From Acidobacteriota bacterium (lineage in GTDB: Bacteria; Acidobacteriota; Terriglobia; Acidiferrales; UBA7541): a DNA stretch of 64,000 bases. A model generated the notes under the pieces. It searched no databases and was not told the DNA's origin. It was given only the letters and a program-made list of their open reading frames with translations. Where the stretch lies: NCBI GenBank assembly GCA_003165465.1, contig PLUM01000036.1, positions 1 to 64,000 of the forward strand, written 5' to 3'. Position numbers and translations under genes: made by a program. Shown in pieces: positions 36,965-57,519 of the stretch (positions within the stretch are counted from its first letter, which is position 1; each line of letters starts with the position of its first letter).

Positions 36965-37030
36965 TCCATTGTAGTGACGCGAGCACAAAAACTGCCGGCG
37001 GGACGCCGACGCTACCAAATCCGTGCCACC
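36965..37030. repeat. palindromic repeat family B, mostly one arm
   Basis: CGAGCACAAAAACTGCCGGC then GGGACGCCGACGCTACCAAA is the right arm of the element seen complete at 46128-46209. It lies 6 nt from the SMP-30 gene stop. Confidence 0.7.
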
Positions 37031-46127: not shown

Positions 46128-46209
46128 TTGGTAGCGCCGGCGTCCCGCCGGCGGTTTTGCGCCGCGACACGAGTACAAAACCTGCCGTCGGGACGCCGGC
46201 GCTACCAAA
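46128..46209. repeat. palindromic repeat family B, complete copy
   Basis: TTGGTAGCGCCGGCGTCCCG then CCGGCGGTTTTGC, opposite GTACAAAACCTGCCGTCGGG then ACGCCGGCGCTACCAA. Other copies at 36965, 49668 and 57431. Confidence 0.88.
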
Positions 46210-47148: not shown

Positions 47149-47835
47149 TTAGTGTGCCGAATCGGGTTTCGGTCCGATTCGGTAACCGGCTCCACGCACG
47201 GTGTGAATTAGCCTGTCCGGGGTGTCCGCGTCGATCTTCTTGCGCAAATAATTGATGTAGACGTCAACCACGTTCGTCATGGTGTCGGAAGAGAGCTTCC
47301 AGACGTTGTGAATGATGGACGACCGCGACACACTTTGGCCGGCGTTCAGCATTAAGTATTCCAGAAGAGCGAATTCCTTGGGCGTGAGTTCAATAGGGTT
47401 GCCGTTCCGGCGCACGACGCGCTTCACGCGGTCCAGCTCCAGGTCTTCACTGCGCAAAACGGGCTCATAGGAGTGGCTGCCGCGCCGCAAGAGGGCGCGA
47501 ATGCGGGCGAGCAACTCCGAAAAAGCGAATGGCTTGGTCAGGTAATCGTCCGCGCCCGAATTCAGGCCGCCGACGCGGTCCTCGACACGCGTGTTTCCCG
47601 TGAGAATTAAAATGGGTATATGGGGCCTGTTGGAACGCACCTGGCTCATTACTTCCAGCCCGCTCATGTCCGGCAAGTTTAAATCCAGAATGAGCAGATC
47701 GCACGGTCCCTCCTCCAACATCGGCAGGACAGCCTTGCCGGTGTTGGCAACCCGAACGTCGAAGTGTTCCGCTTCCAGTCCAGAGGAAAGAAAGTAAGCG
47801 ACAGGTAAATCGTCTTCTGCAACCAGAATATGCAT
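47149..47835 (-). CDS. OmpR-type response regulator
   Basis: From ATG 47835 the protein has 228 residues: a receiver domain (MHILVAEDDLPVAYFLSSGL, LLILDLNLPDMSGLEV with phospho-Asp ~51, LTGNT, and KPFAFSELLARIRALLRRGS) and a winged helix (TPKEFALLEYLMLNAGQSVS, ending VDVYINYLRKKIDADTPDRL then IHTVRGAGYRI). No kinase gene is adjacent, so it is an orphan regulator here. It is divergent from the flagellar remnant. Confidence 0.9.
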   Translation of the reverse strand: MHILVAEDDLPVAYFLSSGLEAEHFDVRVANTGKAVLPMLEEGPCDLLILDLNLPDMSGLEVMSQVRSNRPHIPILILTGNTRVEDRVGGLNSGADDYLTKPFAFSELLARIRALLRRGSHSYEPVLRSEDLELDRVKRVVRRNGNPIELTPKEFALLEYLMLNAGQSVSRSSIIHNVWKLSSDTMTNVVDVYINYLRKKIDADTPDRLIHTVRGAGYRIGPKPDSAH

Positions 47836-48141
47836 GAGCTCGAACTCTCGAATAACAATATCAATATAAAAGGGGAATGTTAGTTTCCCATCCAGATTAG
47901 AGAAAGTCAAGGAGATCGTAAGCGATCTCTCCCGGGCGAATGAAATAGATAGGCGAAATTGCGGCGGTTGGAAGTGTGTGGCAGCGAAAATACTTTTCAT
48001 TTGCGATCAAATCATTCCAATTCAGGATGCGAAATCCTGTTTTGGCCCTTAGTGATTTGTAATGTCCCTCTATCCCGATTGTTTCTCTTGCATAAATTCA
48101 ATTCTGTTTGGAAGCAAAAACGCATAGGTTCAGCGGGCTGA

Positions 48142-48389
48142 TTGAAATACTGGTTCTCCTGGCGTGGTCCGAAGTCGCCCGCGACGCCAATTTTGCGCCG
48201 GTTGCTCGAAGGATTGCAACGGCTGGTGGGCGATCCCGCAACGGATTCCTCGACAATTTTGCTGTGCCATAGCCCGGCGCGGTTTCTTTTGCGGCGTCTG
48301 CTTGAGGGTTTCTTCCGCGTGTAGTTGTCCTTGCTCCGACGGAAATTCCGCCGAGCGTTACCGTGCAGTCGATTGGAGTGATCCGATGA
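48142..48389 (+). pseudogene. flhA: 3' remnant of flhA with frameshift
   Basis: In frame from 48142 the translation reads ...PILRRLLEGLQRLVGDP then ATDSSTILLCHSPARFLLRR and LLE, matching the FlhA C-terminal pattern (LLCSPARxxLRRLLE). After a one-base shift near 48306 the neighbouring frame continues GFLPRVVVLAPTEIPPSVTV then QSIGVIR and TGA at 48387-48389, the normal FlhA end. FlhA is the large export-gate protein of the flagellar secretion system; here only about 80 codons remain, with no upstream part. The flhA TGA overlaps the fliA ATG (ATGA). Confidence 0.82.
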
Positions 48390-49333
48390 GTTCTCACGAA
48401 ATGCCAACGCTTCCACAGCGTGGTTTCAGAGATGCGGAAGAGCGGGAACAAATTCTGCTCGAACACTTGCCGCAGGTGAAATATATCGCTCGCCGGATTC
48501 ACGACCGGTTGCCCGCGCAGGTGCCGCTGGACGATTTGGTCCACTCCGGAGTGGTCGGATTGATCGACGCCGTCAAAAAATTCGATCCGGGCAAAAACGT
48601 TCAGCTCAAGTCGTACGCGAAATTTCGAATTCGCGGCGCCATTCTGGACAGCTTGCGCGAGATGGACTGGAGTCCACGCCGCTTGCGCCGGCAGGCGCGC
48701 CGGATTGAAGATGTGGACCGCGATTTGAAGCTGCGTATGGGCCGCGCGGCCACTGAAATCGAGCTGGCCAAGGAACTCGAAATGACGCTGGACGATTTTC
48801 AGCGCCTGCGGGGAGAATTGCGCGGACTTGATCTCGGCAGTTTGCAGGCCGAGTACGACATGGTCAGCTATCACCCCGACAGCACGGAAAAGGACCCGTT
48901 TTATTTGTGCCTGCATGGAGAAATGAAATCGTACATCGCGACCGCGCTCGATGACGTGGACGAAAAAGAAAAACAGGTCGTTACGCTCTACTACCTGGAA
49001 GAACTGACCATGAAGGAAGTTGGCGCGGTTCTGGGCGTGGGCGAATCGCGTGTCTCACAAATTCATTCGGTTGCCATGGTCCGGTTGCGCGCGCGACTCG
49101 CCGAGCTGATGAAGTCCCGCAATCCGATTCCGGCGGTGAATCCAGACGAGGGGGAGCGGAATGGAATAGATTCTGAATCGGGAGGAAATCGACGCATTAT
49201 TTCGCGCGACGCGGAAGTGCCAGCCATTGCCTGCGGCCGAGCGGGTGGCACAGAAGAACATTTCCCAATTCCATCTCCGCGAAATCAGCTAGATCAACAA
49301 GAATCAGGTGCGCGCGCCGTCCGCGCTGCATGA
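48386..49333 (+). CDS. fliA: RNA polymerase sigma-28 factor FliA
   Basis: ATG 48386 (GGAG 8 nt upstream; overlapping the flhA TGA) gives 315 residues. Sigma regions 2, 3 and 4 are present: LDDLVHSGVVGLIDAVKKFD then AKFRIRGAILDSLREMDWSP (region 2), RRLRRQARRIEDVDRDL (3), and QVVTLYYLEELTMKEVGAVL then GVGESRVSQIHSVAMVRLRA (4). FliA drives late flagellar and chemotaxis genes. Normal FliA ends ~240-260 residues; the last ~58 residues here (from ~residue 258, NGIDSESGGN onward) overlap the decayed fliM in another frame and are probably read-through sequence. No intact flagellar structural gene is present nearby. Confidence 0.88.
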   Translation: MSSHEMPTLPQRGFRDAEEREQILLEHLPQVKYIARRIHDRLPAQVPLDDLVHSGVVGLIDAVKKFDPGKNVQLKSYAKFRIRGAILDSLREMDWSPRRLRRQARRIEDVDRDLKLRMGRAATEIELAKELEMTLDDFQRLRGELRGLDLGSLQAEYDMVSYHPDSTEKDPFYLCLHGEMKSYIATALDDVDEKEKQVVTLYYLEELTMKEVGAVLGVGESRVSQIHSVAMVRLRARLAELMKSRNPIPAVNPDEGERNGIDSESGGNRRIISRDAEVPAIACGRAGGTEEHFPIPSPRNQLDQQESGARAVRAA

Positions 49334-49380
49334 AAGCCTTGCGCGCAATATTACCAATCCGCTCGGCGCGCAAATCCTGC
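49161..49380 (+). pseudogene. fliM: fliM N-terminal remnant with two nonsense codons
   Basis: GGGGGAGCGGA precedes ATG 49161. The frame reads ME-stop-ILNREEIDALFRA (TAG 49167-49169), continues VAQKNISQFHLREIS-stop (TAG 49290-49292), then INKNQVRAPSALHESLARN then ITNPLGAQIL. FliM normally starts ILSQEEIDALL and later has ...F..R.P..I.KEQLR.L..IHE.FARNLT..LSA. The match is specific in order and spacing. FliM is the flagellar switch protein; its C-terminal ~250 residues are absent and similarity stops near 49380. Confidence 0.8.
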
Positions 49381-49902
49381 ATAGAAATTCCATTTTCCCC
49401 GGCAACGTCCCGGGTATTGTTCGCAGATATAGTTGTCCGCCCTGAAATGGCGGGGGATTCCTGCGCCCCTTCAGGGCGCACAAAAATTGGTTGTGGAACC
49501 AAGGGCGTTGCCTTGGGCTAGCTGGCTGCGGCGCTTTCAAGGCCGAAAGGTGTCGATTTGGTTGGGATGGAAACGTCTACCGAGAGAATGTTTTCGTTCT
49601 CGATACGTTTGGGTATTTATGAGATGGCTCCCAGATTGGCAATCAATTCTTTCGTTCTACAAGGTGGGGTTTGGTTGCGCCGCCGTCCCGCCGGCAGTTT
49701 TTGTGCTCGTGTCGCGGCGTAAAACCGCCGGCGCTACCAAACCCGTGCCACATTGGAATTCACCACATCGGAATTCAAGGGACCAATCGCGGAACTCAAG
49801 GAACGGTGTATGAATCATTCCGATTTGCGGCGGGTTGAAGAAGGCGCAAGGGGAATTGGTATTTCGGAATGGGCGATCGAAATGGGCGATCGAAACGATC
49901 GA
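49381..49902. other. repeat-rich gap after the fliM remnant
   Basis: No intact gene. Near 49432-49570 lies a GCCCTGAAATGGCGGGGG/CCCCTTCAGGGCGCAC-type element and CAAGGGCGTTGCCTTGGGCT, a repeat-like motif whose translations are often mistaken for proteins. A family B palindrome follows at 49668-49743. Confidence 0.45.
49668..49743. repeat. palindromic repeat family B, copy 3
   Basis: GGTTTGGTTGCGCCGCCGTC then CCGCCGGCAGTTTTTGTGCT, opposite CGTAAAACCGCCGGCGCTAC then CAAAC. The arms are less perfect than in the 46128 copy. Confidence 0.8.
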
Positions 49903-50271
49903 TCAAGTGGTCTGGTTATAGGCGTTGACCCATCCCTGCAAGTCGTACAGGTGGCGCTTGGCGTTTTCCTGTTGTACTTTGCGAGACATCATGATGCAGG
50001 GCACTTTTTTCAGTGCGGATTGAAGCGCGAGTAGGTTCTTGACGTACGTCGCGATTTCATATTGCAGACTCTGGTCGAGTTCTTCTCCCCGCGAGGCGTC
50101 TCCAACCTCCGGGGCGAGCGTCGAAAGGCGCTGCCACAAGGACTGCAAATCTCTCTCAGTATTCGAATCCGTGCCATTCGCCAAGTCATCGACTTTTCGG
50201 AGAAATTGGCTCATCTCTTCGTTGGCGAGAGCAAATCGTTCATGCTTTCTGTGTTCCATTATGCGCTCCAT
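49903..50271 (-). CDS. helical hypothetical protein next to the flagellar remnant
   Basis: The 122-residue protein (start 50271, or 50259 with a TAATG-type overlap of the preceding small frame) is predicted mostly helical, for example NTERDLQSLWQRLSTLAPEV and SLQYEIATYVKNLLALQSAL, ending YDLQGWVNAYNQTT. No family recognised. Size and helicity would fit a small flagellar chaperone or regulator, but this is only suggested by the neighbourhood. Confidence 0.55.
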   Translation of the reverse strand: MERIMEHRKHERFALANEEMSQFLRKVDDLANGTDSNTERDLQSLWQRLSTLAPEVGDASRGEELDQSLQYEIATYVKNLLALQSALKKVPCIMMSRKVQQENAKRHLYDLQGWVNAYNQTT

Positions 50272-50444
50272 CGCAGTGCCGGCTGCTCGATCTCGGATTC
50301 GGCTGAAGCAGCGATCGTTTGAGTCACACGAGGCGTCGCTTCCGTGTCGCTCTTGCTCTTCGGAACGGGTTTTCTTCCTCCACCCAGTCTATCGGCGCGT
50401 GAGCCTAGAGCTTTAGTCGGCTTTAGTTTTCCCTGGGCGGGCAT
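50259..50444 (-). CDS. possible small basic protein overlapping the previous gene
   Basis: A 61-codon frame (begins MPAQGKLKPTKALGSRADRL, ends EQPALRWSA) whose TAA overlaps the second ATG of the helical protein gene. The overlap hints at coupling, but there is no clear ribosome site and the composition is low complexity. It is uncertain that it is expressed. Confidence 0.25.
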   Translation of the reverse strand: MPAQGKLKPTKALGSRADRLGGGRKPVPKSKSDTEATPRVTQTIAASAESEIEQPALRWSA

Positions 50445-51034
50445 TCAACTATTGAAGTCACAGGGTTTGTGGTGCGTCTTGCGCCCTCCTTCGCGCCATA
50501 GGCTAAAATTTATGCCCCCGGACAGGCCCAAATTCGGTTTCATGGAACGAGCGTACGGCGCATGAGGCTTACGAGTGATGTATTCACAGCCCGTTTATGA
50601 GGAAGTCATTGATGCTGATGGATGCTGATGAATGAATATGCCCAGGAAGTCGGCGAACTCGTGGCCACTGTATTCGCGGTCTGATTTGCATTTCGAGCGG
50701 GCCGCGAAGCCGCAAGACATGTTTGCGGAGAATAATGGCTGAGGCGTGGCGACGGACGTGAGAACGTCCGTCCGCGCGGCCAACACAGGGAGCGAAAAAA
50801 ATCTTTCATTCTGTTATTCCGGGCGAAGAGAGGAATCTCTCCGTACTTTGCGCCCAGTAAAACATGCCGACCCACCCTTCGCAAAAGACGCGAAGGATGG
50901 GGCCCCCACGGAAATCGTCCGCCATCGAAGCGCTTCCGAGGGCTTCCATCCAGGACCGCACATCCCCCTACAGTCGTTGTTGACTTCCTGCCGTGCTGCT
51001 CTTGTAATGGATAACGCAAAACAATGAACTCCAC
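50445..51034. other. 590-nt intergenic region upstream of murJ with repeats
   Basis: It contains a short direct repeat (GATGCTGATG twice near 50610-50630), a hairpin GACGGACGT/ACGTCCGTC (50751-50772) and the D/E repeat pair at 50811-50912. A 9-codon frame (ATG 51024) ends in TGA overlapping the GTG at 51050. No gene is evident. Confidence 0.4.
50811..50912. repeat. adjacent arms of repeat families D and E
   Basis: TTCTGTTATTCCGGGCGAAG then AGAGGAATCTCTCCG (family D relative) is followed by CCGACCCACCCTTCGCAAAA then GACGCGAAGGATGGGGCCCC (family E). The same pairing, in the other order, occurs at 36311-36410. Confidence 0.7.
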
Positions 51035-52651
51035 TTGCAGAATCCATTTGTGAGCGGCTCCGGGACAGCGGCTGCCGGCCGCTTCGCTTCGAAGCGCTCA
51101 TCGTTTCTCGTCGCCTCCGGAATCTTCCTGAGCCGCATCGCCGGACTCGTGCGGGATCGCGTGTTCGCGCATTATTTTGGAAATTCCGACGCGGCGGATG
51201 CATTTAAGGCGGCATTCCGTATTCCCAACGCGCTGCAAAATTTGTTCGGCGAAGGGGTTCTCTCCGCTTCCTTTATTCCCGTCTACGCCTCGCTGCTCGC
51301 GCGCGATGAGGATGAGGAAGCGCGCCGCACGGCGGGAGCCGTTGCGGCGCTGCTCGCGCTCAGCACTTCCATTCTTGTTTTGCTTGGCGTTTTGACGACA
51401 CCGTATCTGATTGACGCGATTGCTCCGGGATTCAGCGGCGAGAAACGCGAATTGACGATTCGGATTGTGCGCATCCTTTTTCCAGGCGCGGGGCTATTCG
51501 TTTTTTCCGCATGGTGCCTCGGAATTTTGAACAGTCACCGGCGATTTTTTCTTTCCTATACGGCGCCGGTGATTTGGAATGCGGCGATGATTGCCACGCT
51601 TTGGGGATTTGGCGCGCGATACGCGCAGTTTCCGCTTGCGATTGTTTTGTCCTGGGGATCGGTGGTGGGCGCGGCGCTGATGGTGGCGATCCAATTGCCC
51701 ATCGTGCTGCGGCTCTTGGGCGGATTGCATCTTTCGTTCGCTTTTCACCTCGAGAATGTTCGGACGGTGGTGCGCAATTTCTTTCCCGTGTTTATCAGTA
51801 GGGGAGTCGTGCAGATCAGCGCGTATGTGGACGCGCTGCTGGCCAGCCTGCTGCCGACCGGCGCGGTTGCGGCGCTGGCCTATGCGCAGACGCTCTACAC
51901 GCTGCCGGTAAGCCTGTTTGGGATGTCGGTATCTGCCGCGGAACTGCCGGCCATGTCGGGCGCGGTGGGCGCGGAGTCCGAAGTTGCCGAAGTGCTGCGC
52001 GTGCGCCTGAATGCAGGGTTGCGGCAAATTGCGTTTCTGGTGATCCCGTCGGTTGCCGCGTTTCTCGTGCTGGGAGATGTGATTGTAGCCGCGATCTATC
52101 AATCCGGACGCTTTACGCACGCGGATTCAAATTATGTCTGGGGAATTTTGGCGGGATCGACGGTGGGCTTGCTGGCGTCCACTTTGGGACGCCTCTATTC
52201 ATCGACCTATTACGCGCTGAAGGATACGCGCACGCCTCTGCGTTACGCTGTCATTCGGGTTGTTTTAACCACGGTGCTCGGTTATCTCTGCGCGATCCCG
52301 CTGCCGCATGCTTTGGGAATCGACTCGCGCTGGGGCGTTGCGGGACTCACGATTTCGGCGGGTATTTCTTCGTGGATTGAATTCGCGCTGTTGCGCCGCA
52401 CGCTCAACCGACGAATCGGCGCGACCGGGCTTTCTCCCGCGTACTTGGCCAAGGGATGGGGCGCCGCGCTCGTGGCCGCGGGGATTGGCCGCGCGCTGCT
52501 CATTGCGGTTGGTCATCGCAATCCAATCCTCGTGGCGATGATTGTCCTCGTGCCATACGGAGTCGCGTATTTCGCGGGATGCGCCGTGCTGGGCTTCCGT
52601 GAAGTACGCGGCCTGCTGGAAATGTTCTCCCGGCTACGCCTGCGGTCGTAA
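51035..52651 (+). CDS. murJ: lipid II flippase MurJ
   Basis: The 538-residue MATE-like MOP-superfamily protein has ~14 transmembrane helices. The MurJ opening is typical: SGIFLSRIAGLVRDRVFAHY, then DAADAFKAAFRIPNALQNLF with the conserved Arg, and GEGVLSASFIPVYASLLARD. It flips lipid II across the inner membrane for peptidoglycan synthesis. Starts TTG 51035 or, with a GTGA overlap of a mini-frame, GTG 51050. No partner genes adjacent; a repeat-rich gap precedes it. Confidence 0.93.
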   Translation: MQNPFVSGSGTAAAGRFASKRSSFLVASGIFLSRIAGLVRDRVFAHYFGNSDAADAFKAAFRIPNALQNLFGEGVLSASFIPVYASLLARDEDEEARRTAGAVAALLALSTSILVLLGVLTTPYLIDAIAPGFSGEKRELTIRIVRILFPGAGLFVFSAWCLGILNSHRRFFLSYTAPVIWNAAMIATLWGFGARYAQFPLAIVLSWGSVVGAALMVAIQLPIVLRLLGGLHLSFAFHLENVRTVVRNFFPVFISRGVVQISAYVDALLASLLPTGAVAALAYAQTLYTLPVSLFGMSVSAAELPAMSGAVGAESEVAEVLRVRLNAGLRQIAFLVIPSVAAFLVLGDVIVAAIYQSGRFTHADSNYVWGILAGSTVGLLASTLGRLYSSTYYALKDTRTPLRYAVIRVVLTTVLGYLCAIPLPHALGIDSRWGVAGLTISAGISSWIEFALLRRTLNRRIGATGLSPAYLAKGWGAALVAAGIGRALLIAVGHRNPILVAMIVLVPYGVAYFAGCAVLGFREVRGLLEMFSRLRLRS

Positions 52652-57430: not shown

Positions 57431-57519
57431 GGGTTTGGTAGCGCCGGCGTCTCGCCGGCGGTTTTGCACCGAGAGACCAGGATAAAAAATGCCGGCGAGA
57501 CGCCGGCGCTACCAAACCC
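57431..57519. repeat. palindromic repeat family B, copy 4
   Basis: GGGTTTGGTAGCGCCGGCGT then CTCGCCGGCGGTTTT, opposite AAATGCCGGCGAGACGCCGG then CGCTACCAAACCC; near-perfect arms of ~33 nt. Confidence 0.88.

Follow-up and report, generated by a model that had tools for sequence, protein, structure and literature searches.

An uninterrupted sigma-28 gene among the remnants of a flagellar cluster in an Acidobacteriota genome

Flagellum loss is common and FliA often persists in non-motile genomes. The flagellar regulon is gone from the non-flagellated Legionella oakridgensis, which retains functional FliA and FlgM (Tlapak et al. 2017, reviewed in PMC5655016), its FlgM being probably degraded and not exported (PMC5655016). 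In Chlamydia trachomatis, sigma-28 has a two-gene regulon formed by hctB and tsp and governs late development, as tested by knockdown (PMC10597470). In a survey across bacteria, FliA matches were reported in 41% of non-motile genomes, and its main text makes no mention of Acidobacteria (PMC12199754). Survival of sigma-28 after the loss of the flagellum is, then, an already known phenomenon. Here we describe a locus from an acidobacterial genome in which fliA lies between the ruins of its former neighbours.

The fliA locus and its flagellar remnants

The window analysed is a stretch of 64,000 nucleotides located on C75, an 89-kb contig from a draft genome of 4.6 Mb (completeness 89%, contamination 6.9%) whose nearest named relatives are metagenome genomes of Terriglobia (Acidobacteriota). 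All the genomes compared were drafts and any absence is conditional on their completeness. The fliA gene begins at the ATG at position 48386 of the forward strand and its ORF extends to 49333, comprising an intact core (residues 1–257) and an out-of-frame tail. Its product matched the TIGR02479 profile (FliA_WhiG) with an E value of 1.4e-67 and 227.8 bits (cut-off 189.6), residues 24–238 aligning with positions 2–223 of the 224 of the profile. Sigma-70 regions 2 and 4 (PF04542 and PF04545) were above the Pfam cut-off and region 3 (PF04539) was just under it (22.8 vs. 25.3); the linker between regions 3 and 4 shows a 7-codon in-frame deletion. The protein is 76–78% identical to the FliA of flagellate congeners, and the 257 codons of the core contain neither stop nor frameshift, in agreement with the original prediction that the gene is uninterrupted. 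Consensus scans upstream of fliA identified no convincing sigma-70 or sigma-54 promoter.

Both neighbours of fliA are decayed. The last ~77 codons of flhA were located at 48163–48386 of the same strand by tblastn with the FlhA of a congener (E=1e-22). The match is split into two frames, the first covering 48163–48315 (73% identity) and the second 48309–48386 (77%), with a one-base deletion near 48306–48308, and the TGA of the remnant overlaps the ATG of fliA; the shift near 48306 and the overlap had both been predicted. Downstream, the 5′ remnant of fliM (49161–49376, forward strand; tblastn E=1e-15 to 8e-21, 50–61% identity) carries the two expected TAG codons, at codons 3 and 44. It is joined to a 3′ remnant, QILHRNSIFPGN (49371–49406, forward strand), recognized by tblastn (residues 309–325 at 49356–49406) and by blastn (49361–49401 against L070:10467–10507), matches which are each weak alone but in order. 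Since the 5′ scar runs straight into the last FliM codons, about 240 internal codons have also been lost, a deletion that the original prediction had missed.

The 57-residue C-terminal tail of FliA (49157–49333, forward strand) was delimited by comparison of the junction. From the conserved EGE codons to the ATG of fliM there are four bases in the window instead of two, as a consequence of which the native fliA stop is out of frame and the scar of fliM is read out of frame. Therefore, the extension of fliA into fliM, as first proposed, does exist, but it is a product of this shifted stop and not a simple read-through. The G+C content at third codon positions is 0.38 in the tail and 0.68 in the core.

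The locus is flanked by two anchors. On the outer side, an OmpR-family response regulator (47149–48000, reverse strand; Response_reg and Trans_reg_C domains) flanks the flagellar cluster of the congeners, where its orthologues are 71–76% identical (G004:C15:2342–3025, G005:C28:93513–94187, and G002:C36:44297–45037). On the inner side, murJ (51035–52651, forward strand) is 88–93% identical to the genes found downstream of that cluster (G004:C15:49146 and G005:C28:46740). An HDOD-domain gene precedes murJ in the congeners, and its last 17 codons remain in the window at 50628–50678 of the forward strand (tblastn, 76% over 17 residues, E=8e-5). In the three congeners G002, G004, and G005 the flagellar cluster is complete and shows the same flhA-fliA-fliM order, and the distance from the OmpR-type regulator to murJ, with the cluster in between, is 45–46 kb in G004 and G005 vs. 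3.0 kb in the window. These 3.0 kb hold, in ancestral orientation, the flhA scrap, fliA, the fliM scar, ORF122, the end of fliS, a fliC-type promoter with its leader, and the end of the HDOD gene. The order flhA-fliA-fliM-ORF122-HDOD-murJ, together with the outer neighbour, is identical between the window and the congeners. In addition, FlhA, Flg_bb_rod (rod/hook), and flagellin, all of them present in the congeners, were not found in the host genome (89% complete). Synteny shared with the three congeners and the lack of further flagellar genes in the genome firmly uphold the preserved gene order and the in-place decay, not chance similarity, that had been read from the sequence. A further congener with an incomplete genome, G001, has wholly different DNA upstream of murJ, and fliA was not found in it.

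It is very improbable that the organism is flagellate and that the lesions stem from faulty assembly or sequencing, or the contig from contamination. The incompleteness and the contamination estimate of the draft would allow it, but the anchors at either side, on the same 89-kb contig, are 71–93% identical to those of congeners, the lesions are of several independent types, and the flagellar genes named above are missing genome-wide. Alternatively, fliA could be a paralogue or a lateral acquisition which landed beside flagellar scraps, and some relatives do carry two FliA copies (G006, G015, G033, and G034). However, in the FliA tree the window protein falls among the flagellar FliA proteins of the genus (support 100/99), and both flanking scraps fit the gene order of the genus exactly, so that this origin is extremely improbable. 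Regarding the two-copy genomes, which include the loci L097 (G006:C79) and L089 (G015:C38), in G006 one fliA is inside the flagellar cluster and the second is about 21 kb away, beside an OmpR-type regulator.

According to the history that we propose, a flagellate ancestor within this Terriglobia genus would have lost the cluster in place, through successive deletions between the gene of the OmpR-type regulator and murJ. The intergenic DNA of the window contains six copies of a palindromic repeat rich in G+C (GCGCCGGCGTCCCGCCGGCGG and its inverse), zero being expected by chance, at positions including 36992–37012, 46134–46202, 49677–49697, and 57441–57509. The copy between the fliM scar and ORF122 might have had a part in the deletions.

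ORF122 and its sigma-28 promoter

Two genes of the cluster would have escaped the deletions, fliA and ORF122, the latter encoding a small helical protein of a fliC-fliD-fliS-ORF122 operon. ORF122 is an intact gene of 122 codons (49903–50271, reverse strand) with 61–64% identity to its congeneric counterparts over 122/122 residues and without gaps. In the congeners it lies behind fliC-fliD-fliS and adjoins fliS; in the window, the last codons of fliS (RWSA and stop; 50259–50273, reverse strand) overlap the start of ORF122, and an equivalent overlap (QWSA and stop) is found in G005. Upstream of ORF122 there is a sigma-28 promoter, TAAAGCTC-N11-GCCGATAG (50389–50415, reverse strand), which aligns with the fliC promoter of G005; about 90 bp at this site are alignable with that promoter and its leader (E=9e-7). 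Sigma-28 promoters are throughout this work sequence matches.

The strict sigma-28 pattern (TAAAG-N14-GCCGAT) had one match in the 4.6 Mb of the host genome, the one before ORF122, and 6, 14, and 11 matches in the flagellate congeners, and the reversed control pattern gave 3, 2, 2, and 4 matches. The promoter type cognate to the FliA family (TAAA-N15-GCCGATAA) is represented in the host by this strict match. Of the non-flagellar targets originally suggested, the host genome has this one promoter and no more. FlgM (PF04316) had no match in the host genome at E≤0.05.

In the congeners, sigma-28 sites precede fliC, flgM, and an HDOD gene belonging to the flagellar system, and at other places they precede further genes. 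Outside the cluster, sigma-28-type promoters were observed before a gene for a VWA-like protein (two genomes), before that of a small TonB-like protein with a chemoreceptor-like gene behind it (two genomes), and before a hemerythrin-like gene (one genome). These targets are at L158, L159, L152, L167, and L162, and their names were read from the sequence and not from a family search.

The ORF122 protein is helical and confined to the genus of the host. Pfam, NCBIfam, AlphaFold, and Foldseek gave no identity for it. The position of its gene behind fliS would fit a FliT-like chaperone, which neither profile nor fold search establishes; the FliT structures 3a7m and 3h3m appear among the non-significant Foldseek matches to its model (pLDDT 72).

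A deletion removing fliC, fliD, and nearly all of fliS would have brought the sigma-28 promoter of fliC directly before ORF122. As a result of this placement, the host may hold a circuit of one promoter, from FliA to ORF122, without the FlgM brake. FliA is predicted to fold and to recognize the ORF122 promoter, and the circuit would need both FliA to be expressed and ORF122 to be transcribed through it, which we infer.

Selection and decay in the host genome

Whether fliA is the last gene to fall or has been retained was left undecided by the original prediction. Selection was estimated with a codon model in which branch lengths were shared across genes, synonymous sites being near saturation at the distances compared. 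On the window branch, murJ was unchanged with an omega of 0.052 (0.047 elsewhere) and fliA had one of 0.23 (0.052); the scraps of flhA and fliM reached 0.30 (0.067) and ORF122 0.41 (0.10). The fliA and ORF122 values differ from their background (P=5e-8 and P=3e-6, respectively) and no difference was found between them and the scraps on the same branch (P=0.24 and P=0.22). An omega of 1 was rejected over the whole window branch. However, this branch includes the flagellate past and the loss of the flagellum is recent relative to it; therefore, the low whole-branch omega says little. The dN/dS of fliA, which had been proposed as a check, departs from 1 but does not set the gene apart from the ruins.

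Selection tests did not show a sparing of fliA relative to the ruins, as the difference vanished once branch lengths were shared across genes. An omega of 0.06 for ORF122, obtained with three taxa, was likewise discarded as a saturation artefact, four taxa and shared branches giving the value reported above. The 29 FliA substitutions of the window lineage avoid conserved sites (3 at the 60 invariant sites vs. 8.7 expected); as a sign of sparing, this was also dropped, the ruins showing a like pattern. With respect to lesions, the adjacent ruins have three in 137 codons, and the chance that all three miss the fliA core is 0.349^3=0.043. A simulation considering only stops gave 1.4–2.9 expected stops in fliA at plausible neutral times (P about 0.05–0.24). 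The absence of stops is only suggestive of retention.

The intact core, the conserved sites, and the rejection of omega=1 leave room for a real retention of fliA in this genome. FliA could be actively maintained for a non-flagellar job, transcribing ORF122 and perhaps genes with weaker promoters, in which case the relaxed omega would reflect a smaller regulon and not the death of the gene. The two ORFs surviving from a 46-kb cluster in which all other genes are gone are linked by a near-consensus sigma-28 promoter, the core of fliA is intact, as is ORF122 over its full 122 codons, and relatives demonstrably retain FliA without flagella. However, the omega values of both genes match those of the ruins, FlgM and the native fliA stop have been lost, and ORF122 is restricted to the genus and has no known non-flagellar role. 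We consider maintenance a real possibility, although short of even odds. Given the loose omega, the loss of FlgM, and the lost native stop, neutral decay of fliA and ORF122 in this genome cannot be rejected.

Because omega resembles that of the scraps, the lack of stops is only suggestive, and FlgM is absent, we lean to a relict with one remaining promoter. In this genome, fliA would be a relict with a one-promoter circuit, left by the in-place loss of the cluster, and not a fully established regulator; we give this reading a probability of roughly 0.55. From the loss of the flagellum onwards the constraint on FliA would have been strongly relaxed, and FliA would more likely be on its way out than a fully established regulator.

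FliA without flagella in relatives and in known systems

More than 20 genomes among the relatives tested have FliA without FlhA. The loci of the relatives were collected with a FliA query, which biases any estimate of how often they retain FliA; the one bias-free figure is 8 of the 19 high-quality flagella-less genomes in the sample. In the FliA tree, flagella-less and flagellate genomes are interleaved, with at least 16 state changes, three of them in the clade of the host family and six in Sulfotelmatobacter-like clades; these counts are approximate, as a gene tree was used and some forks are weakly supported. Four other independent loci show flagellar debris around FliA: scraps of flhA, fliM, and flgF in L032; motB in L035; flhA and fliM in L044, where fliA is interrupted too; and flgE and the start of fliM in L049. 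The host would be a single case of something that recurs across Acidobacteriota, survival of the sigma-28 gene beyond the flagellum; some relatives clearly retain this gene, along with FlgM and chemosensory genes.

Between flagella-less pairs, the omega of FliA was 0.04 (L045–L046) and 0.07 (G010–G022), with omega=1 rejected below 1e-40. FliA is retained after flagellum loss in relatives, which is well supported, and is under purifying selection where measurable. Of the two outcomes first considered for fliA, retention is often the case in relatives, but in the host genome its omega is indistinguishable from that of the ruins. An interrupted fliA was observed in two flagella-less relatives (L044:3850–4662, with a stop near L044:4456, and L055:8001–8743, with a frameshift), so in some lineages the gene eventually decays.

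FlgM matches over the family cut-off were present in 12 of the 24 flagella-less genomes with FliA and in 0 of the 11 without it (Fisher P=0.0055, a test which ignores kinship). Tandem sigma-28 promoters precede flgM in L032, L035, and L037, which have a further sigma-28-like site before a cheR-HDOD-cheB operon, and in L045 flgM has a sigma-28 promoter and a FlgN-like gene comes next. Across whole genomes, the flagella-less relatives had sigma-28 matches in numbers near control counts and consequently we claim no large regulon for them. The branch length of FliA differs with the presence of FlgM (P=0.005) and its omega does not (P=0.71), hence no claim is made about FliA rate and FlgM.

An OmpR-type regulator, a histidine-kinase-like protein, and a sigma-54 activator are often encoded beside flagella-less fliA. 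The recurrent set at L035, L037, L032, L085, and L097 consists of the OmpR-type regulator, a HisKA-like protein of about 249 aa, and a sigma-54 activator of about 400 aa, which ends after the AAA lid and in which no DNA-binding domain was detected. Tentatively, and with more doubt than confidence, Acidobacteriota sigma-28 could be regularly freed from the flagellum as a stand-alone module after repeated and independent in-place losses, of which this genome would be the smallest form, with one promoter. Such a module might comprise FliA, often with FlgM, the OmpR-type regulator, the kinase-like protein, the sigma-54 activator, and the sigma-28-driven cheR-HDOD-cheB operon.

The stages found in this one class are flagellate congeners with the full cluster, an intact fliA amid fresh ruins, old losses in which FliA and FlgM are constrained, and broken fliA (L044 and L055). 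Standing side by side, they make possible a direct comparative test of a sigma factor that is retained vs. one that is merely the last to decay. They also permit a comparative test of how FliA is released from FlgM without an export apparatus.

As in L. oakridgensis, the entire flagellar regulon is gone from the host and the sigma-28 gene is present. Unlike in that species, where both proteins have been shown to be functional, FlgM is missing from the host, and fliA still lies amid debris of the cluster. Several acidobacterial relatives match the Legionella state, with both FliA and FlgM. With C. trachomatis the host shares a minimal sigma-28 regulon in the absence of flagella, but here there is one promoter, reused from fliC, and the putative target is ORF122. 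The bacterial survey found a matching presence/absence signature at large scale; it counts homologues, and in the passages considered it shows no in-place collapse, FlgM co-retention, or promoters (PMC12199754). What is new with respect to these systems is a series of stages within a single class, including in-place ruins, co-retention of FlgM, and a genome in which one sigma-28 promoter is left.
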